Shown here in pieces: positions 29,527-40,335 of a stretch of DNA of 64,000 nt. This DNA comes from Clostridiales bacterium (GTDB lineage Bacteria > Bacillota > Clostridia > Christensenellales > Aristaeellaceae). A program made the translations under genes and the position numbers. A model generated the notes under the pieces. The model made no database searches. It saw only the letters and a list, made by a program, of their open reading frames with translations, and was not told the origin of the DNA. How positions within the stretch are numbered: position 1 is the first letter of the stretch; each line of letters begins with the position of its first letter. Location of the stretch: NCBI GenBank assembly GCA_017569285.1, contig CP069419.1:1674001-1738000 (forward strand), given 5' to 3'.

Positions 29527-29587
29527 CTTGTGCCCTTGCGGCACAACATATGGGCGCCCGACTATGGTACCGTTCTATATCATCCGG

Positions 29588-29616
29588 TTGCAAAACACCC
29601 TTCCGGCCGTTACAAT
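29588..29616 (+). promoter_or_regulatory. Promoter of the Pro/Thr-rich secreted protein gene
   Basis: TTGCAA (29588-29593), 17-bp spacer and TACAAT (29611-29616). Confidence 0.65.
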
Positions 29617-29677
29617 AGAAGGCATAGAAAACACCTGGATTATCACGGCCGACCCGGCCGTATACGGAGAAACTGCC

Positions 29678-31078
29678 ATGAAAACACGCCGGTCCATCCT
29701 GCTCCGCCTTACAGCCATTCTCCTGCTGGCTGCCCTGCTTCCGCCGGCCCTGGCGGACCATACCCACTGGTGTGATATCTGCGATGAAAACACGGACTTT
29801 TACAGGGACGAGGAAACCGGCGATGATGTCTGCAGCGTCTGCGGCTGGCGGATCGAAGGCCGTGCCAAAGTGACCGCGTCGCCAACGCCCTCACCGACGC
29901 CGACACCTACACCTACACCTACGCCGACGCCGGCTCCGACGGAATCCCCGACGCCGTCCCCAAGCCCGACACCGACGCCCACGCCAACGCCCACACCGAC
30001 ATCCACGCCGACCCCGGCGGCAACAGATACTCCCACACCGACGCCCACGCCCACGCCGACTCCGGCACCGACGCAGCCCCCGGCTCCGGCTCCTGCGCAG
30101 GCAGGCCAGCCGGCGGTCACTCCGGAAGCCCCGGCAGGAGTTCCTTCTGACCATACAACGCCGCCGGGGGCCGAAAGCATCCCGGAAAATCCGCCGCCGA
30201 CTCCGGTTCATTCAGCGGAAACCCCGGTTCCCGCATCGGACCCGGAAACTCCGACCCCTGTACCCGGGGAGAACACTCCGACACCCACCCCGGTGATTCA
30301 ACCGGAAACGCAGGTGCCGGTATCCGACCGGGAAACACCGACTCCCGCCCCCAGCGCGGAAACGCCGGCTCCTATGCCGGACCAGACGACACCGACACCG
30401 GTTCCGAAGGCGGAAACGCCGGCTCCCATGCCGGACCAGACGACACCGACACCGGTTCCGAAGGCGGAAACGCCGGCTCCCATGCCGGACCAGGAGACGC
30501 CGACACCGATGCAGAAGGCGGAAACTCCAGCCCCCATGCCGGACCAGGAAACTCCGACCCCCATGCCGAAAGCGAAAACCCCGGTGCCGACCCCGACGAT
30601 CCGGCCGGAAACTCCGGTTCTTATGCCGGATCAGGTGACGCCGACGCCGGCTCCAAAGGCATCAACTCCAACGCCGCCTCCGACACTCAGTCCGGAAACC
30701 CCAGCGCCCATGCCGGGCGGGAATACGCCGGCTCCACTGCCGGAAACTCCTGCGCCGCAGCCGGAGATACCGGATGAGACGCTTCCGCCGACCTTTGCGC
30801 CGGTAACGGCCACCCCGGATCCCACATCTACCCCGGAGCCAACCCCGGTACCGACTCCCACCGGAACCCCGGCGCCGACCTTGACACCCCGGGTGATGGA
30901 AACCCCGGAACCCCAAACCCCGGAACTGGGTTCCGGAACCCGCAACTGGATCAAATATCCGTTATATGACAAAAACCACGCGGACCGCCGGCTGAATGTC
31001 CCGGCTGACCCGGATTGCTGGGCGCCCATCGCCGGCACCCCATCCCTGCTCTCCCAGGAAGATCCGGTGAGCATATAA
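29678..31078 (+). CDS. Secreted Pro/Thr-rich repeat protein with zinc-knuckle head
   Basis: Protein of 466 residues. A signal peptide (MKTRRSILLRLTAILLLAALLPPALA) is followed by a small head with two CxxC pairs (CDICDE, CSVCGW) that could bind zinc. Most of the rest is a Pro/Thr/Glu-rich stalk, first TPTP runs, then an 18-residue repeat (ETPAPMPDQTTPTPVPKA type) coded by 54-bp tandem units. The last 45 residues (NWIKYPLYDKNHADRRL to DPVSI) are ordinary in composition. No LPXTG or membrane anchor is visible. The start is ATG at 29678, since the signal peptide begins there; a longer frame from 29528 has none. Function is unknown; a wall-spanning stalk is plausible. Confidence 0.7.
   Translation: MKTRRSILLRLTAILLLAALLPPALADHTHWCDICDENTDFYRDEETGDDVCSVCGWRIEGRAKVTASPTPSPTPTPTPTPTPTPAPTESPTPSPSPTPTPTPTPTPTSTPTPAATDTPTPTPTPTPTPAPTQPPAPAPAQAGQPAVTPEAPAGVPSDHTTPPGAESIPENPPPTPVHSAETPVPASDPETPTPVPGENTPTPTPVIQPETQVPVSDRETPTPAPSAETPAPMPDQTTPTPVPKAETPAPMPDQTTPTPVPKAETPAPMPDQETPTPMQKAETPAPMPDQETPTPMPKAKTPVPTPTIRPETPVLMPDQVTPTPAPKASTPTPPPTLSPETPAPMPGGNTPAPLPETPAPQPEIPDETLPPTFAPVTATPDPTSTPEPTPVPTPTGTPAPTLTPRVMETPEPQTPELGSGTRNWIKYPLYDKNHADRRLNVPADPDCWAPIAGTPSLLSQEDPVSI
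30356..30571 (+). repeat. 54-bp coding tandem repeat, four copies
   Basis: Units begin with GCGGAAACGCC or a close variant at 30356, 30410, 30464 and 30518; a degenerate fifth begins at 30572. The first and second units are almost identical, the later ones diverge. Recent duplication or contraction is likely. Confidence 0.85.
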
Positions 31079-32884: not shown

Positions 32885-33035
32885 CTGTACGCTGCTTCGA
32901 CCGAGGAGGTCCCGGTAAATCGGTATACGGTTCGCCCCATACGGAACGCCCCTAAACAGATCGCGGACAGTGCCCGCGTTGACAATTGGGAAACACTCTA
33001 TCGATAACAGCGCGCGGTAACCGCGCAGCCGAACA
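32851..33035 (-). ncRNA. Candidate structured leader or small RNA before rny
   Basis: A consensus-like promoter (33042-33070) and the terminator at 32850-32884 bound a transcript of about 185 nt. On the minus strand its ends can pair in a broken rod: CGGCTG with CAGCCG, GCTG with CAGC, TCGA with TCGA, GAG with CTC and TCCC with GGGA. Internal hairpins include CGCGG/CCGCG. A near-repeat GGGGCGTTCCGTAT / GGGGCGAACCGTAT lies at its centre. Size and rod shape recall 6S RNA, but no conserved sequence confirms that. It may instead be an attenuator that controls rny. Confidence 0.5.
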
Positions 33036-33041
33036 CAGTTA

Positions 33042-33070
33042 ATGATATATAATTTGTATACATTTGTCAA
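33042..33070 (-). promoter_or_regulatory. Promoter of the rny leader RNA
   Basis: TTGACA (33070-33065), 17-bp spacer and TATCAT (33047-33042) on the minus strand. Confidence 0.75.
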
Positions 33071-33282
33071 GGTTGCGTATCCAATTCCACGGGCGGAAGA
33101 GTAACTGCTCACGGAAACGGCCGGTTTCAGTGCATGACTGAAACTGTGTTAAACAATAAAAACCGGGAAGAGCGGATGATGAATTGCACTAGGAAACACA
33201 ATAAATCATGCATAAATTGCACATATCAATTGACATTAATATGCAAAATGTGCATAATGTATATTGAACGGAGGTGTAAACA
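33071..33282. promoter_or_regulatory. Intergenic region with promoter and operator of the HTH-nucleotidyltransferase gene
   Basis: TTGACA (33230-33235), 17-bp spacer and CATAAT (33253-33258) form the plus-strand promoter. The inverted repeat ATGCA-AAATG-TGCAT spans 33241-33255, over the spacer and -10 box. Related TTGCAC motifs sit upstream near 33184 and 33217. This pattern fits autorepression by the gene's own HTH domain. Nothing else is seen between 33071 and 33180. Confidence 0.6.
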
Positions 33283-33756
33283 GTGACAGAGCTGAAGAAA
33301 CAACGGCTGAAAAGCAAAATGACTCAGCGCGAAGCAGCGGAAAAGATCGGAATCTCACTTCGTTCCTATATTTCCTATGAGAATGAGGCGGAAAAAGCCA
33401 ATACTCCCAAATATCGTTTTCTGCTGGCAGAAATGCGGGAAATCAGCCGTATGGATGAAGAACACGGCATTTTATCGAAAAAAGAAATTACAGAGGCATG
33501 CAATGAAATCCTGAAGGATTATCCTGTGCAGTACTGCTATCTTTTTGGTTCCTACGCCAAAGGAAAAGCTTCCGAAACCAGCGATGTCGATCTGCTGGTT
33601 TCTTCCGGCATCACCGGCCTGCGCTTTTATGAACTTGCGGAGAAACTTCGGGAACGGCTGCATAAAAAGGTTGATCTTCTGGACCTGAAACAATTGACAG
33701 GTAACGAAGAACTCCTGAATGAAATACTGAAGGATGGGATCAGGATTTATCAATAA
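33283..33756 (+). CDS. HTH-XRE and MNT nucleotidyltransferase fusion protein
   Basis: Protein of 157 residues. Residues 1-60 are a helix-turn-helix of the XRE type (MTQREAAEKIGISLRSYISYENE). Residues 75-155 are a minimal nucleotidyltransferase: GSYAKGKASETSDVDLL carries the GSxAxGxxxxxSDxDL motif, and KKVDLL supplies the third acid. MNT proteins normally pair with HEPN toxins (MntA/HepT), where they adenylylate the toxin. No HEPN gene adjoins this one; the next gene encodes an unrelated membrane protein. It starts with GTG after GGAGG. It may be an autoregulated orphan antitoxin or a regulator whose ligand is a nucleotide. Confidence 0.85.
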   Translation: MTELKKQRLKSKMTQREAAEKIGISLRSYISYENEAEKANTPKYRFLLAEMREISRMDEEHGILSKKEITEACNEILKDYPVQYCYLFGSYAKGKASETSDVDLLVSSGITGLRFYELAEKLRERLHKKVDLLDLKQLTGNEELLNEILKDGIRIYQ

Positions 33757-33776
33757 TGCAAAAAGGAGATCTCAAA

Positions 33777-34373
33777 ATGGATATTATTCTGAATATTCTG
33801 ATATTCCTCATTACCGCGGCTTTGGTCTTTGCCCTCTTCCGCAAGGATGGGCAGTGGACGCCGGATAACGCCCGGGGTGCTTTCCGCTTCTTCACTGTGC
33901 AGAGCAATACGCTCTGTGCCGTCGTCTCCCTGATCACGGCCATCACCGCCCTGGCCGGCGGAGTACCGCAGTGGGCCTGGACACTCAAGTATATCGGCAC
34001 CGCGGCGGTCACCGTCACGATGCTCACCGTCATTTTCTTCCTGGCGCCCAGCATCGGGAAGGACTGGTACGATGTGCTCCTGAAAGGCGCGAGCAACCTG
34101 TTCATGCACCTGCTCACCCCGCTCATGGCGCTCGTTTCCTTCTGCCTGCTGGAAAAGCGCGGCATGTCATTCCCCCAGTGCCTGTGGGGACTGCTCCCGG
34201 TGGTCCTGTACGGCCCGCTGTACCTGTACAAAATCGCCTTTGCCCCGGAAGAAAAGCGCTGGAAGGATTTCTACGGCTTCAACAAAAACGGAAACTGGAA
34301 GATCTCCTTTACCGCCATGGTTATTGGTACCTTCCTCATCTGCCTGGGCATCATGGCGCTGCAGAATCTGTAA
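33777..34373 (+). CDS. Small integral membrane protein (Pr6Pr-like)
   Basis: Protein of 198 residues with six hydrophobic segments. The pattern FRFFTVQSNTLCAVVSLITA near residue 40 and a late GPLYLYKIAF resemble the Pr6Pr / FAR-17a-AIG1-like membrane family, of unknown function in bacteria. ATG at 33777 follows AAGGAG; an earlier in-frame ATG at 33756 overlaps the previous stop codon and lacks a site. It lies 20 bp after the HTH-nucleotidyltransferase gene, so both may share a transcript. A terminator follows at 34394-34421. Confidence 0.7.
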   Translation: MDIILNILIFLITAALVFALFRKDGQWTPDNARGAFRFFTVQSNTLCAVVSLITAITALAGGVPQWAWTLKYIGTAAVTVTMLTVIFFLAPSIGKDWYDVLLKGASNLFMHLLTPLMALVSFCLLEKRGMSFPQCLWGLLPVVLYGPLYLYKIAFAPEEKRWKDFYGFNKNGNWKISFTAMVIGTFLICLGIMALQNL

Positions 34374-34393
34374 CAGCAGGACAACAGATAAAT

Positions 34394-34421
34394 GGACTCC
34401 CCATACCAGGGGAGTCCGTTT
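34394..34421 (+). terminator. Terminator after the small membrane protein gene
   Basis: GGACTCCCC (34394-34402) pairs with GGGGAGTCC (34409-34417), followed by GTTTA. Confidence 0.7.
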
Positions 34422-34470
34422 ACAATTGAGCGGATTATGGGAAAATAAACCGCAGGGAAAGGACCGGTTT

Positions 34471-35541
34471 TTATTTCCAGCACTGGGGGTCAGGCGCGTA
34501 GAAATTCCCGTTCTGTGTCCCCGAAGCGACGGCCGGGCAGCCGCGGCACCAGGGCATCAGCTCGCATGAGGCGCACTTTTCAAACCGGGTGTAATCCCTG
34601 TATTGATTCATGGGACCGGCCCACAGCTCGCTGAGATTGTCTGTCAGGGCGTTGCCGATACGGCTGCTCAGTACCCGGCGGCAGGCATATACATCTCCGT
34701 TGGGCAGGATGGTCAGATGGCTGATCCCGCAGTGGCACCCGCCGTAGATCACACCGGGTTCTGTCTCTTCCGGTATCTGGAACCTTCCCCGTTCATAATC
34801 GTAAAGGGTCCAGAGGTGGTCCTTTTTTCCGTATCGGGTCTGGCTGCCTTTTTCCAGCAGCTCGTGAATAACGGTTGCGCAGTCGGCCAGGAACTGCCGG
34901 TATTCCGAAGGTGTGATGCCCACGTCTTTGTCCGGGCCGGTAGGACAGTAACGGGAGAAAGCATAGGAGCTGACGCCGGCTGCATCCATGACTTTGATCA
35001 CATCCGGAATCTCTGCCATATTGGTGCGGCTCACGGTTGTCATGATGGCGGAAGGGAGGCCGGTCCGGTTCAGAAGGGCAATTTTTTCCATTGTTTCCCG
35101 GTATGAACCCGGTTTGCGCATCCGGTCATGGGTCGCTTCCAGGCCGTCAATGGACATCTGGTATTGTCTGCATCCCAGTTTTTTCAGTTTTTTACATGCG
35201 CCGGCTGTCAGGTGAAAGGGATTACCCATGACGGTAAAGGATACGCCGGCCTGATGCAGCAGCTCCGCGAAAGACCAGAAATCGGGATGAAGGAGCGGAT
35301 CCCCTCCGGTAATGCAGAAAGATGGCTGCATATTGAGCCGGTCACAGAATCCCAGGCATTTGTCCAGGATCCGGACGAAATCGGCGGCCGAAACGGTTTC
35401 AGGCTCTTTCTGCCGGTCTTCCCCGTAGATATAGCAATGGGTACACCGCTGATCACAGGCATCGGTAATATGCCACTGGAAAGTGAACCAGGGCCGGATG
35501 TCCGAGGCGGATTTTTCTTTTTTTCTCATGATGTTTTTCAT
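34471..35541 (-). CDS. Radical SAM/SPASM enzyme, candidate tail-modifying maturase
   Basis: Protein of 356 residues. The radical SAM cluster motif is CDQRCTHC (Cys 29, 33, 36), and GGDPLLHPDF follows as the SAM-binding GGE-type motif. The C-terminal SPASM domain has CHC near 267, a Cys in GDVYACRR, then CASCELMPWCRGC and a last Cys two residues from the end. This suits two auxiliary iron-sulfur clusters. Enzymes of this kind make thioether or other links in peptides. It is the third gene of a tight operon, 18 bp after the Ser/Cys-tailed TPM protein, whose tail is the obvious candidate substrate. No separate small precursor peptide gene is visible. The link between enzyme and tail is inferred. 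Confidence 0.85.
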   Translation of the reverse strand: MKNIMRKKEKSASDIRPWFTFQWHITDACDQRCTHCYIYGEDRQKEPETVSAADFVRILDKCLGFCDRLNMQPSFCITGGDPLLHPDFWSFAELLHQAGVSFTVMGNPFHLTAGACKKLKKLGCRQYQMSIDGLEATHDRMRKPGSYRETMEKIALLNRTGLPSAIMTTVSRTNMAEIPDVIKVMDAAGVSSYAFSRYCPTGPDKDVGITPSEYRQFLADCATVIHELLEKGSQTRYGKKDHLWTLYDYERGRFQIPEETEPGVIYGGCHCGISHLTILPNGDVYACRRVLSSRIGNALTDNLSELWAGPMNQYRDYTRFEKCASCELMPWCRGCPAVASGTQNGNFYAPDPQCWK

Positions 35542-35559
35542 ATTGTCCCCTTTGCTTGA

Positions 35560-36516
35560 TCAGAAGCTGCTGCTGCCGCCTGAACCGCAGGAGGAGCAGG
35601 AAGAACAGGACGAACAGGAAGAACCGGAAGAACAGGAGGAGCCGGAGGAAGAAGACGAACTTGGAATTGCCTTCCTTTCCGACCGGATGAGTTTCTTGTT
35701 GAGAAGTTTGGCAGTGGAGGAATGAGCCCAGTTCAGGGATAAGGTGGTATTTTCAGCCTTTGGCTGCAGGCTTCTGTTCTGGGTCAGGATGAATGAAATC
35801 AGCAGGGCGAGGCCCAGGGCGACCAGGACCGCGCAGACCATCCGCATAACAGAGAATGCATATACACCGTGGATCGCGTTATACACGTCAGTAAAAGAAG
35901 CAACTGCGCAGTCCCCGTATTTTTGCTTGGTGGCCAGGGAACTGTTCCGGTCGGTGATTGCGTTGGCTTCGGAAGAACTGACAAAATTCTGTATATCTCC
36001 CCGGGTCAGGAGGGAAATTTTCCGGCTGCCCATGTTGATGGCAAACGCGGCGCTGGGCACGTCCACGGAGCGGCTGATATGACGGTCCACATATTGCTGT
36101 ACAGACAGCAGATGATCACTGACCCTTTCGTTCGATGTCCAGAAGATGACATGACAGTACTGGGACAGTTCCTGCATGACTTTCAGCACTTTTTCTTTGT
36201 CTTCGGAAGAAAGCAGCCCGGCGGAATCATCCAGGATAATCCGGTATTCGTTTTCGGCGGAACCCGGATACTCCTGTGCCGGCTTTGGCACAGGGGTCGG
36301 ATCCGACCTGGATGAAGAATCGGTAGAAGGCTTTGAGAAATCAATTTCAGTATAGGAATATTGCGGAGCGCTGAACTCCAGCGGGGGAATATAGTAGGTG
36401 GGCAAAGAGCCTGCACCGGTGAGTTTTTCTTCAGACAGGGCGGAAGGCGCCGGTAACCATATAACTGCCAGCAGGAGAAGAAGCGCCGCAAAGGCTTTCA
36501 GCGTCCTGGTTTTCAT
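35560..36516 (-). CDS. TPM-domain membrane protein with Ser/Cys-rich tail
   Basis: Protein of 318 residues. A signal peptide spans 1-28. A TPM domain (YgcG type) covers about 95-215, starting YRIILDDSAGLLSSEDKEKV. One membrane segment lies at 221-244. The end, from about residue 286, is Ser/Gly/Cys only, with cysteines at 295, 301, 304, 307 and 310 (C-x5-C-x2-C-x2-C-x2-C). TPM proteins commonly end in a Gly-rich cytoplasmic tail; here Ser and Cys replace it. The topology places the tail inside the cell, where the neighbouring radical SAM enzyme works. ATG at 36516 overlaps the upstream stop codon (ATGA) with AAGGAGGG before it; the ATG at 36522 is too close to that site. Confidence 0.8.
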   Translation of the reverse strand: MKTRTLKAFAALLLLLAVIWLPAPSALSEEKLTGAGSLPTYYIPPLEFSAPQYSYTEIDFSKPSTDSSSRSDPTPVPKPAQEYPGSAENEYRIILDDSAGLLSSEDKEKVLKVMQELSQYCHVIFWTSNERVSDHLLSVQQYVDRHISRSVDVPSAAFAINMGSRKISLLTRGDIQNFVSSSEANAITDRNSSLATKQKYGDCAVASFTDVYNAIHGVYAFSVMRMVCAVLVALGLALLISFILTQNRSLQPKAENTTLSLNWAHSSTAKLLNKKLIRSERKAIPSSSSSSGSSCSSGSSCSSCSSCSSCGSGGSSSF

Positions 36517-38156
36517 AGGCATCCCTCCTTTTCATCAAAGAAGGGAACCGGACGGGTCACATATGCGTTGTGGAGCCTGAACGCGTTCAGCAGGACCAGC
36601 AGGGTAATCACAGAGCAGACCAGGCCAATGAGGTACAGGAATGTTTTGAATCTTCCAAACAGAATGGTCAGGAAGCAGATAACAATCTGCGCAATCAGGC
36701 AGTAACGGTCCGGAACGGACAGAGTCGTTCCCTTGAACAGAAAGACGAGCAGCATCACCGCAGAAAAAATACACAGGGCCGGGGGCAGCACGGAACTGTC
36801 CGAAATCAGGGAGTTCACAGCGCGGAGTGGGTTTCCGTTAAGGACCACATACAGCAGAAGAATAACGGCAACCACAATTCCTGTAATCCACAGGGGTTTC
36901 CACCGTACGAAAACCCGGTCTTTCTCCTGCCCGGCCTGTGACGTGGCAGGAAGGTACTGAACCAGGTTTTGCTTCTCCTCCGTCTTGACGTTCCGGAGCA
37001 TGGTCCGGGTTGGATCGCTGTCATTTCCTTCCCGGTTTATCCTGGCCAGGAATGGGCCTGCTGCGTTCCAGCACAGCATCGCCAGCAGGCAGCTGAGGGC
37101 TGTGGTGATTCTCGGGCGCAGCAGGATATAGCGGTGAAGCCCCAGAATCAGTGCAGTGAGAATCACAGCCAGGATACAGAACAGCAGGATGAAACGCTTG
37201 GGACTGATGGGCAGTTCACAGCGTACCTTGGGATCTTCTTTCGTTCCCTTGACGGCGGTATATACCATTTTCTCTCCCTGCCGGGTGGCCAGCAGCCAGA
37301 CCGGCATCAGCACCAGCTCTGCGTTTTCCCTGAAGTTGTCCGGCAGGGTGAAGGTGCCGGGGGAACCAAGGCTTTGCAGGGCATAATCCCGGACCAGGGC
37401 GGAAAAATCATCGCTTTTCATATCCGGAGCTTCCGCGTAGAAACCGGAAAGATATGCCGGATGAAAAGGAACGGATTTCCTGCTGCTGAACGCGAGCCAC
37501 TGGGCGGTTTCGTCATCAAACTGCGTGCAGGCGTCATAGTAAACATCCCATACGCTGACATGGGTGGAATGCTCCACGGCATAGGTGTTGGTCGTGATAT
37601 AGTTACTGTCGGTTTCCACCTCATTCTGCTCTCCGGTGCAGGTTCCGTCGCCTTTCCCGGAGAAACACCAGAACGGGATGTAAACCGGCCGGAAATGAGC
37701 GATGGTTTCCTCTTTCCGCATGTCTCCCGGAACCAGCGGGGAGTCTTTCAGACGTTCCCGGTAAAGCTGCTCGCATTTTTCCCGTGTCATGGTGAAGGGA
37801 ACGATTCGGTCCGGACGGCGCATCCGGTTCATGCGTTCCTCCAGGACCACATCCGATCCGCAGAAGCTGCAGAAGGTAGTGACGCCGGAGGAAGTGGTGT
37901 AGAGTGAGGCACCGCAGGATGGGCAATGGTACTCCACAGTCTCCATGTCCGCGGGGCGGGCATTCTCTCTGGACGAGACAGGATCCGGCAGTTCGCCGAC
38001 CGGAAGCAGCTGGCTGCACTGTTCGCAGCGCAGCTTTCCTTCGCGAATATCGAATTTCAATGCTCCGGCACATTTGGGGCACCTGAAATTGATACCGTTC
38101 TTTGATGTGAAAGGCGGTTTCAGTCCGTTGCTTTCTGCGGCCTGATTCTGAATCAA
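36513..38156 (-). CDS. Double zinc-ribbon multi-pass membrane protein
   Basis: Protein of 547 residues. The N-terminus carries two zinc ribbons: CPKCAG with CEQC (residues about 25-46), and CPSCGA with CSFCGSD (about 77-98). A soluble middle domain includes HFRPVYIPFWCFSGKGDGTC and several aromatic conserved-looking stretches. Six or so membrane segments fill the C-terminal 220 residues. Similar TFIIB-type zinc-ribbon membrane proteins occur beside TPM-domain proteins in Bacillota; their role is unknown. This is the first gene of the operon and overlaps the next gene by four bases. Promoter at 38265-38294. Confidence 0.75.
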   Translation of the reverse strand: MIQNQAAESNGLKPPFTSKNGINFRCPKCAGALKFDIREGKLRCEQCSQLLPVGELPDPVSSRENARPADMETVEYHCPSCGASLYTTSSGVTTFCSFCGSDVVLEERMNRMRRPDRIVPFTMTREKCEQLYRERLKDSPLVPGDMRKEETIAHFRPVYIPFWCFSGKGDGTCTGEQNEVETDSNYITTNTYAVEHSTHVSVWDVYYDACTQFDDETAQWLAFSSRKSVPFHPAYLSGFYAEAPDMKSDDFSALVRDYALQSLGSPGTFTLPDNFRENAELVLMPVWLLATRQGEKMVYTAVKGTKEDPKVRCELPISPKRFILLFCILAVILTALILGLHRYILLRPRITTALSCLLAMLCWNAAGPFLARINREGNDSDPTRTMLRNVKTEEKQNLVQYLPATSQAGQEKDRVFVRWKPLWITGIVVAVILLLYVVLNGNPLRAVNSLISDSSVLPPALCIFSAVMLLVFLFKGTTLSVPDRYCLIAQIVICFLTILFGRFKTFLYLIGLVCSVITLLVLLNAFRLHNAYVTRPVPFFDEKEGCL

Positions 38157-38264
38157 GGAAGTCCCTCCTTCCTTATGGATAACAGACAGTTACTGCGGTC
38201 TTTGCAAACCGCGTTCGAAGCAGCCGGGATATATGCTGACAAACAGATTCTTTTTTATGGGAGC

Positions 38265-38294
38265 ATCGTATCACAAATCATGATAACTGTACAA
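38265..38294 (-). promoter_or_regulatory. Promoter of the zinc-ribbon/TPM/radical SAM operon
   Basis: TTGTAC (38294-38289), 18-bp spacer and TACGAT (38270-38265) on the minus strand. The element AAAAACAATTGTA that includes the -35 box is shared, in register, with the promoter at 41985-42014. Confidence 0.6.
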
Positions 38295-38328
38295 TTGTTT
38301 TTTGAAGATATGGGTATTTGTTGTTTTT

Positions 38329-40335
38329 TTATTCTTCCGGAATCAGCCGGATGATGTCCTTGAACGGCATCAGCTGCGCATCGCATTCCTCAGCCCGGTG
38401 GCTTTCCAGGATGGTTTCCGCGGCCCTTTGGATAGCCGGAACCGCCGCCCGCATCAGCTGGTTGGCGTAAATGATGATGTTCGCCCCGCGGGCTTTCCAC
38501 TCTTCCTCTTTCACGCTGTTGAAGGAGGTCGGCACCAGCACCACCGGGGTGGTCAGGTCCTTTTCCCGGAATTTTTCGAGGAACTCAAAGATCTCCGCCG
38601 GATCCTTCTTCCGGCTGTGGATCATGATGGCATCTGCCCCGGCCTCGACAAACGCGAACGCGCGGGTGAGCGCATCCTCCATGCCCTGTTCCAGGATCAG
38701 GCTCTCAATCCGGGCGCAGATCATGAATTCGCCGGTCCGCTGCGCCTTCTTGCCTGCCCGGATTTTTGCGGAGAAGTTTTCAATGGTGTCCTGGGTCTGT
38801 ACTACTTCGGTACCGAACAGACTGTTCTTCTTCAGTCCCGTCTTGTCCTCAATGATGACCATGCTCACACCCATTCGCTCCAGGGAGCGGACGGTATACA
38901 CAAAGTGCTCAGTCAGTCCGCCGGTATCCCCGTCGAAGATGATGGGCTTTGTCGTCACTTCCATGATATCGTCAATCGTCCGGAATCGGCTGGTCATGTC
39001 CACCAGCTCAATGTCCGGTTTGCCCTTGGCGGTGGAATCGCACAGGGAAGACAGCCACATGGCGTCAAACTGGCGGGCGCCGCCGTTCTCATGCACCACG
39101 GTATTCTCCACCACCAGGCCGGTCAGCCCGTCATGGGCTTCCATCACGGTTACCAGGCCTTTGGCTTCCAGCATCCGCTTCAGCCGCCCGCGCCGGATAT
39201 CCGGCATGGCCAGGTCTGCCCGCTGGCGTTTGTCGATTTCCTTGTACTTCGGGTCGCTGGCATACGGATACTCCACCAGCTTTCCGCCGTAGCCCGCGAG
39301 AATCTCCACAACCTCGTCCCGGATGGGCTTCTGGAAACCGGTCACCCAGTCATCCCCGTGCACCACGATGTCCGGTTTTTCCCGTTCCAGCACATCCCGG
39401 TAGGAAAGCGTATCCTGGATAATGACCCGGTCCACCCCGGCGATGTTCTCGAACATCACTTTCCGCTCAGAAGCGGGCACCAGCGGAAAGCGCTTGTAGG
39501 AAGCAACCGCTTCGTCCGAGAGGACCCCGATAGTCAGCTTTCCCAGTTTCTGCGCTTTCCGGATAATGGCGATATGCCCTCCGTGGATGATGTCCGCGGA
39601 GAAACACATATACACGGTCCGGGATTCAATTTCCTTCAGCTTGTCTGTTACCATTGCCAGGTCCTCCGGGTTGTCAATCTCGGCACACAGCAGGTTCTTT
39701 ACGTCCAGCGCGGAAATATTCGCCGCGCCGTCCAGTTCATTCAGTGCGTTCTCGGCATACACTTTTCGGTTGCCGCTTTCGCAGAATTCAATAATCTTGC
39801 CCAGCCATACCTTCCAGTCATCCCGCAGCAGTTTGTACAGCGCCTGCGCTTCCAGGGCATCATCCCACACGTCCACGCCGACGCGGATGACCTTCCCGTC
39901 CCGCACCTGGGCCTTGAAATCCTTCTCCGGCAGCGGGAGGGTGGAAGATACGGTCATGCAGGAGGAAGCAGAAGCAAGCACCTGTTCCAGCACTTCATCC
40001 TCAAACACCAGGTCCCCGTGCATCAGTACAATATCGTCATCCAGGTATTCCCTTGCGCAGTAAATGGAATAAATATAGTTGGTCCGGTCATACTCCGGAT
40101 TTTTCACAAAGGTAAACTGCAGCGGAAGCCCCAGCGACCGGCAGTAGGAAACCAGCACCTCGTCATAATACCCGGTGGTGATCACCACTTCCGCAATCCC
40201 GGCATCCGCAATCTGCCGCAGCTGCCGCGAAAGGATCGTCTCCCGGGCAGAAATCTCCGTCATGCACTTGGGGTGCTCAGAAGTCAGCATCCCCATGCGG
40301 GACCCGAGACCGGAATTCAGAATCAGCGCTTTCAT
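38329..40335 (-). CDS. Phosphoenolpyruvate mutase fused to two nucleotidyltransferase domains
   Basis: Protein of 668 residues with three enzyme domains. Residues 1-230 are a sugar-nucleotidyltransferase fold of the LicC type (MKALILNSGLGSRMG). Residues 238-370 are a glycerol-3-phosphate-cytidylyltransferase-like domain with HGGH near 250. Residues 390-668 are phosphoenolpyruvate mutase, with IIFDGDTGG and the diagnostic EDKxxxKxNS motif (EDKTGLKKNS) near 500. The mutase makes phosphonopyruvate, the entry to C-P bond natural products; nucleotidyltransferases of this type can activate phosphonates as CMP esters for transfer to glycans. No phosphonopyruvate decarboxylase or transaminase gene is in the window. 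The promoter is at 40370-40399, and AAGGGGAT precedes the ATG. Confidence 0.88.
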   Translation of the reverse strand: MKALILNSGLGSRMGMLTSEHPKCMTEISARETILSRQLRQIADAGIAEVVITTGYYDEVLVSYCRSLGLPLQFTFVKNPEYDRTNYIYSIYCAREYLDDDIVLMHGDLVFEDEVLEQVLASASSCMTVSSTLPLPEKDFKAQVRDGKVIRVGVDVWDDALEAQALYKLLRDDWKVWLGKIIEFCESGNRKVYAENALNELDGAANISALDVKNLLCAEIDNPEDLAMVTDKLKEIESRTVYMCFSADIIHGGHIAIIRKAQKLGKLTIGVLSDEAVASYKRFPLVPASERKVMFENIAGVDRVIIQDTLSYRDVLEREKPDIVVHGDDWVTGFQKPIRDEVVEILAGYGGKLVEYPYASDPKYKEIDKRQRADLAMPDIRRGRLKRMLEAKGLVTVMEAHDGLTGLVVENTVVHENGGARQFDAMWLSSLCDSTAKGKPDIELVDMTSRFRTIDDIMEVTTKPIIFDGDTGGLTEHFVYTVRSLERMGVSMVIIEDKTGLKKNSLFGTEVVQTQDTIENFSAKIRAGKKAQRTGEFMICARIESLILEQGMEDALTRAFAFVEAGADAIMIHSRKKDPAEIFEFLEKFREKDLTTPVVLVPTSFNSVKEEEWKARGANIIIYANQLMRAAVPAIQRAAETILESHRAEECDAQLMPFKDIIRLIPEE

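Follow-up and report, generated by a model that had tools for sequence, protein, structure and literature searches.

In a 64,000-nucleotide stretch of the genome of a Clostridiales bacterium (contig CP069419.1, positions 1,674,001 to 1,738,000; hereafter the window), three tightly packed genes probably form one tail-modification operon, in which an enzyme of the ACGX type, a radical S-adenosylmethionine (SAM)/SPASM protein, has been placed behind a TPM-type membrane protein that ends in a (Ser-Ser-Cys)n tail. Read 5' to 3' on the minus strand, the genes encode a zinc-ribbon (ZnR) membrane protein with N-terminal CxxC pairs (36513 to 38156; 547 amino acids, TTG start), the TPM-type protein (35560 to 36522; 318 or 320 amino acids), which consists of a signal-like helix, the TPM domain, a later transmembrane (TM) helix and the tail, and the enzyme (34471 to 35541; 356 amino acids). 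The proposed substrate is the Ser/Cys tail itself, SSGSSCSSGSSCSSCSSCSSCGSGGSSSF, with which the TPM protein ends (coding sequence at 35563 to 35649, minus strand). A first, sequence-only reading of this DNA had already proposed the tail as a radical SAM substrate. Comparative genomics supports that proposal, and we consider it likely that the tail is modified in some way. Beyond the sequence-only reading, the enzyme is a member of the ACGX system without its usual precursor, and other membrane proteins share the pairing. This suggests that an enzyme that modifies peptides has switched to a large membrane protein, with the tail as its target.

Tail type and SPASM genes among TPM proteins

The window protein scores 18.3 bits against PF04536 (TPM) and its sister-species counterpart 20.4 bits, both under the cut-off of 22.1. 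The TPM label is given because the window protein is homologous to clear TPM proteins: it matches Gly-tailed homologues at E values down to 7e-24, and all 16 homologues that were aligned reach E <= 0.01 with PF04536 (best, 7e-35). A homologue search returned 36 matches, and tails were read for 31 of them (30 loci and L085), five matches being without a locus. Six further TPM matches from the class were read as well (L064 to L068 and L079, the last a partial match without a Pfam scan), and L045 is cut by a contig end inside its Gly-rich tail.

Two of the 37 tails read carry Cys; the remaining 35 lack it and are rich in Gly or in Ser and Gly. A SPASM gene is present in the locus of both Cys-tailed proteins, adjacent in the window and one gene away in the sister species (G021/RUG363; the RUG363 locus DNA is present letter for letter in a G021 contig). 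No radical SAM gene was found near any of the 35 homologues without tail Cys, within flanks of about 1.5 kb a side (0/35). A radical SAM profile run over the 37 TPM loci within these flanks matched at the window locus only, and the G021 enzyme lies one gene further. The co-occurrence of Cys tail and SPASM gene that the sequence-only reading had put forward as a check is thus found in this sample.

When the window protein is aligned with Gly-tailed homologues, the Cys tail stands in place of the Gly tail, with the final Phe common to both. Both species end their tails in SSCSSCGSGG, with five Cys in the window and eight in the sister species, and the linker before the tail has diverged while the tail motif was kept. 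In both, the last tail Cys is followed by Gly; the rest of the tail Cys precede Ser. The difference in Cys count between the two species resembles the copy-number variation of ACGX peptides. Sequence identity between the two species is 73% for the enzyme, 51% for the ZnR protein and 47% for the TPM protein by BLASTP, with the tail outside the alignment. A DNA microsatellite was also considered as an origin of the tail and ruled out, because Ser and Cys codons are mixed in the window (five codons for Ser, two for Cys) and in the sister species, and the S-S-C motif is retained there with other codon choices.

By hydropathy, the TPM protein has a signal-like helix at its N terminus and a single TM helix at about residues 228 to 246. 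The 40 residues that follow this helix contain 8 Lys/Arg versus 2 Asp/Glu, and by the positive-inside rule the tail is therefore predicted to lie in the cytoplasm, a placement based on hydropathy and this rule only. In that position, the tail would be accessible to a cytoplasmic SPASM enzyme. Modeled with AlphaFold from a two-row alignment, the TPM protein reached a mean pLDDT (predicted local distance difference test) of 49.5, and a search of solved structures with this protein gave nothing useful.

The packing described in the sequence-only reading is borne out by the coordinates. The ZnR stop codon is contained in the ATGA at 36516, the start of the TPM gene, which gives a 4-base overlap, and the enzyme gene begins 18 bp past the TPM stop. 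An alternative in-frame ATG lies two codons upstream, at 36522; the ATGA start is preferred. Counted from ATGA, the tail Cys are residues 295, 301, 304, 307 and 310, as first listed; counted from the first ATG, they are 297, 303, 306, 309 and 312.

A ZnR homologue adjoins the TPM gene in 30 of the 30 TPM loci fetched. Zinc-ribbon Pfam matches of the window protein remain below their cut-offs, and its CxxC pairs were read from the sequence. A second TPM match occurs only in the window genome (G000) and in G021, the remaining 32 matching genomes having one each. The window ZnR-TPM pair is best explained as an extra, diverged copy of a pair common in the genus.

The enzyme and the ACGX system

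The window enzyme matches the NCBIfam family TIGR04340 ("radical SAM/SPASM domain protein, ACGX system") with 491.4 bits (cut-off, 400) over positions 2 to 339 of 341, and it is the sole copy over the cut-off in the 3.27-Mb genome. It also matches PF04055 and the SPASM domain family PF13186 (38.2 bits; cut-off, 21.5). Its radical SAM motif is C29xxxC33xxC36, and the SPASM region contains C269, C271, C287, C323, C326, C332, C335 and C354, which confirms the CxxxCxxC motif and the Cys-rich SPASM domain noted earlier. The final SPASM pair is CxxC in this enzyme and in four other aligned rows. A solved-structure search gave distant matches only, the best being SkfB (3e-13). No TM or signal family matched the enzyme, which is probably soluble and cytoplasmic.

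In a class sample of 391 genomes, TIGR04340 exceeds the cut-off in 16 genomes at 17 loci, the window genome included, and an ACGX-repeat peptide lies upstream at all 16 of these loci other than the window's. In a genus sample of 45 genomes, the enzyme occurs in 7, with an ACGX-like peptide in G034, G010, G448 and G450; G058, from the same order, has a short ACGX-like peptide. Across the over-cut-off loci of genus and order, the window's own included, the peptide is present at five of eight and was not seen at the G000, G021 and G003 loci.

Searches with TIGR04341, the repeat-peptide family, gave no match over its cut-off of 28 in the window genome (best, 13.4 bits, with a stop inside) and none at all in the G021 genome, with a profile that scores the G034 peptide at 95.8 bits, gives the short G058 peptide about 13 bits and misses the G010 peptide. 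Between 33 and 41 kb of the window, no ACGX-repeat precursor peptide was found and no further Cys-repeat small open reading frame (ORF) stood out. The earlier statement that no other precursor peptide is present therefore holds for the locus; for the whole genome, it holds within the limited sensitivity of TIGR04341.

In a tree of 34 rows, the window and G021 enzymes form a pair (100/100) within a 25-row ACGX clade (100/99). An ACGX-like peptide lies upstream of 21 of these 25 rows (20 by a strict pattern, with G010 and its PACG repeats added by eye), a TPM tail of two, and neither was seen at the remaining two. The gap between peptide and enzyme spans 51 to 184 bp in 19 of the 20 strict-pattern loci and 661 bp in L059. 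Since the branching order within the clade is poorly resolved, the number of switches is not countable; a single switch from ACGX peptide to TPM tail is the simplest reading. Row L055, kept in the tree unchanged, is a fragment: its TIGR04340 gene, located behind an ACGX peptide, is interrupted by an in-frame TAG.

The gene surroundings of the enzyme differ between loci. In G003 (L016, 5221 to 17000), it lies beside genes that we take to be flavodoxin-like and lanthipeptide-synthetase-like, and beside presumed ABC transporters. Genes that we take to be MDR- and Sir2-like lie downstream of the enzyme in the ACGX loci L013, L015 and L111, whereas they are absent at the window locus. At L062/L091 and L166 to L168, diverged TIGR04340-like enzymes (L062 under the cut-off at 308 bits) are followed by a membrane protein that is presumably AgrB-like, and no ACGX peptide was seen at these loci.

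The same pairing in other membrane proteins

When the two Cys-tailed TPM proteins were made into a profile and run over the class sample, a protein outside the TPM family came up: a membrane protein of G228 with an (SSC)7 tail, whose matches to TIGR04222 (19.5 bits) and DUF2207_C (14.7 bits) are weak and under the cut-offs. A SPASM gene lies directly downstream of it. Within 59 genomes of the G228 genus, this SPASM enzyme has 12 matches, itself included, seven of which follow a Cys-tailed membrane protein (four of ~300 amino acids and three DUF2207 proteins of about 525 to 550 amino acids). Four others are in tandem SPASM clusters and one is TIGR04340-like, all without a Cys-tailed neighbor.

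The same 59 genomes were also searched from the DUF2207 side. A home-made DUF2207 profile missed many members and was replaced by reading the ORF at each reported Pfam match, which gave 23 matches representing 22 loci. Three of these are Cys-tailed and 17 Gly-tailed; L156, without such a tail, and L158, cut by its contig, were set aside. In the stretches examined, which cover only 246 and 1845 bp downstream at L141 and L157, a SPASM gene lies directly downstream at 3/3 Cys-tailed versus 0/17 Gly-tailed loci (Fisher p 0.0009, a value that ignores relatedness).

A profile of eight such enzymes found 10 loci in the 391-genome class sample. Seven exceed 370 bits, and six of these have a Cys-tailed protein upstream, with tails that range from SSC to GGC repeats. 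The hosts include a protein that exceeds the family cut-off of DUF2207 (L165) and others that exceed that of TIGR04222 (L163 and L164). C-x-x-C repeat tails are found on DUF2207 proteins and on proteins that match TIGR04222 or weakly resemble it, in both cases with SPASM genes directly downstream. In the tree, these SPASM enzymes group together (100/100), separate from TIGR04340; the root is a midpoint root and long branches meet, so the relation between the clades is unsure. A tail-only profile run over the 391 genomes missed the window's own tail and was not used for counts; it did bring up one more Cys-tailed protein with a SPASM neighbor (L116). TIGR04222 had no match at E <= 0.001 across 138 class genomes.

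Taken together, it is reasonably likely that SPASM enzymes of at least two clades in Clostridia were recruited to C-x-x-C tails of otherwise Gly-tailed TPM, DUF2207 and TIGR04222 proteins. They would then constitute a general membrane tail-modification system whose substrate is a permanent part of a protein, parallel to the pairing of MNIO enzymes and TIGR04222 proteins proposed in actinobacteria.

Several observations weigh against this interpretation of the window locus and its generalization. The TPM cases number only two and are related to each other. In the sister species, a gene for a BspA-type leucine-rich repeat protein (PF13306; L014, 2181 to 3710) stands between the Cys-tailed TPM gene and the radical SAM gene, overlapping the latter by 4 bases, so TPM-radical SAM adjacency is not strict. 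The region after the TM helix of the sister protein holds 6 Lys/Arg versus 4 Asp/Glu, which gives weaker support for a cytoplasmic tail. Tail Cys are mostly spaced by 3, versus 4 or 10 to 13 in ACGX peptides. Two members of the ACGX clade, L016 and L111 (a short contig), show neither ACGX peptide nor Cys tail. Among the other membrane proteins, two of the six Cys-tailed loci over 370 bits (G228 and G174) trained the profile, leaving a Cys-tailed protein at four of the five new loci. One further locus over 370 bits (L162), the three weaker loci L166 to L168 (215 to 222 bits) and, in the stretches examined, the loci with two or more tandem SPASM genes (L107, L108, L112 and L113) have no Cys-tailed neighbor. 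Finally, the protein at L090 (8552 to 9868), which has CxxC pairs near its N terminus and ends in a Cys/Gly repeat, has no radical SAM gene in 17 kb; its genome encodes one on another contig, beside another Cys-tailed protein, that of L116.

Proposed chemistry and related systems

In the scheme that we propose, a (Ser-Ser-Cys)n repeat took the place of the Gly-rich C-terminal tail of the TPM protein, and an ACGX-type enzyme lost its own repeat-peptide precursor and came to be placed behind the TPM gene. The TPM protein would be membrane-anchored, its tail reaching into the cytoplasm, where the enzyme would act on the repeat. Cleavage of SAM would yield a 5'-deoxyadenosyl radical, this radical would abstract a hydrogen from a carbon atom in one of the repeat residues, and a Cys thiol held at an auxiliary cluster would close a thioether, at most one per Cys with a loss of 2 Da each. 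The product would be a knotted, protease-resistant tail, which, more speculatively, could alter the ZnR-TPM contact or metal binding. Thioethers are a common outcome for Cys-rich SPASM substrates. For the bond formed here, a thioether is a tentative assignment, to which we give somewhat less than even chances.

A different product on the same tail, either formylglycine formed from Cys or Ser or an azole-like change, is unlikely but deserves consideration. The second-best family for the enzyme is SbtM (TIGR04082; NCBIfam: thio(seleno)oxazole) with 189.5 bits, and the anaerobic sulfatase maturase family TIGR03942 also matches, with 54.1 bits, but these matches lie below the family cut-offs (350 and 349.45, respectively). 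Ser and Cys dominate the tail, and a Cys-Gly step is present at its last Cys, whereas all other tail Cys precede Ser. That unexpected bonds can form in repeat peptides is illustrated by TvgB, which makes cyclopropylglycine in TVGG repeats (PMC9062424).

It is quite improbable that the Cys tail stays unmodified, as a metal- or redox-active element, with the radical SAM gene a passenger. The CxxC pairs of the ZnR partner already suggest metal binding, and the Cys/Gly-tailed protein of L090 lacks a nearby enzyme. However, the association is repeated in different membrane proteins and with two radical SAM clades, while Gly-tailed homologues are without a radical SAM gene in the stretches examined. 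Slightly less probable still is that the enzyme works in trans, its substrate being an ACGX-like peptide from elsewhere in the genome and the TPM protein being unrelated to it: a divergent peptide could be missed by TIGR04341, as the G010 and G058 peptides illustrate, but the clade norm is a peptide just upstream of the enzyme, the window genome has only the stop-interrupted 13.4-bit match, and no such ORF was found near the locus.

Several described systems resemble the locus in part. By score and motifs the enzyme is a full member of the ACGX system (TIGR04340/TIGR04341), with a Cys-repeat candidate substrate just upstream, as in that system. The difference is that the ACGX peptide is not found and the proposed substrate is the tail of a 318- to 320-amino-acid membrane protein. 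With Gly-tailed TPM and DUF2207 proteins, the window TPM protein shares the domain, the late TM helix and a C-terminal low-complexity tail, but (SSC)n has replaced the Gly tail. Sacti- and ranthipeptides, which are ribosomally synthesized and post-translationally modified peptides (RiPPs), arise from leader-core precursors and are thioether-linked, whereas the candidate in the window is a membrane-protein tail.

The closest precedent concerns a different enzyme family. TIGR04222 membrane proteins with Ser/Gly-rich, Cys-interspersed C-terminal regions adjoin MNIO (DUF692) enzymes, and subsets of them are proposed as MNIO substrates with the tail in the periplasm, according to PMC12452194, where both occurrences of "radical SAM" are in the reference list. 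As described there, the two systems share a Cys-interspersed, Ser/Gly-rich membrane-protein C terminus beside a peptide-modifying metalloenzyme. They differ in that the window combines a radical SAM/SPASM enzyme, a TPM host and a tail predicted to be cytoplasmic rather than periplasmic. Neither the TPM nor the ZnR protein of the window matches TIGR04222 at E <= 0.01, and the MNIO family is absent among the Pfam matches of the 10 genes scanned. In TvgA/TvgB (PMC9062424), a radical SAM enzyme likewise acts repeatedly on a short repeat, as is proposed for the window; there, however, the substrate is a peptide with TVGG repeats, the chemistry is on Val and the TvgA repeat has no Cys.

A Cys-tailed membrane protein as the proposed substrate of a RiPP enzyme is thus known for MNIO (PMC12452194). 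In the literature searched, outside which most subscription journals fall, no paper was found on TIGR04340 chemistry or on radical SAM enzymes with TPM or DUF2207 proteins. As far as this literature goes, what is new is the radical SAM variant of the idea, hosts of the TPM and DUF2207 kinds, and an ACGX peptide that has evidently been lost. Research on RiPP enzymes normally deals with small peptides that are cleaved. If the proposal is true, a repeat-peptide enzyme switched to a membrane-protein tail would link natural-product chemistry to envelope biology and would help to understand the presence of low-complexity tails on TPM, DUF2207 and TIGR04222 proteins. Closely related enzymes, some paired with ACGX peptides and others with (SSC)n tails, would also represent a natural substrate-switching experiment.

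Downstream of the three genes, a terminator-like hairpin of 9 pairs, 7 of them GC (34394 to 34417, minus strand; a consensus match only), lies 53 bp past the radical SAM stop and is the likely end of the operon; a scan of both strands found 8 such sites versus 4.4 in shuffles. Rfam gave no match at gathering score over 33000 to 38700. Other genes in the window include a helix-turn-helix domain fused to an MntA-antitoxin-like nucleotidyltransferase (33283 to 33756; 59.5 bits, cut-off 60) and a long Pro/Thr repeat protein with CxxC pairs close to its N terminus (29528 to 31078). At 38329 to 40335, a single gene encodes a fusion of a nucleotidyltransferase, a cytidylyltransferase-like domain and a phosphoenolpyruvate mutase (TIGR02320, 392.8 bits).

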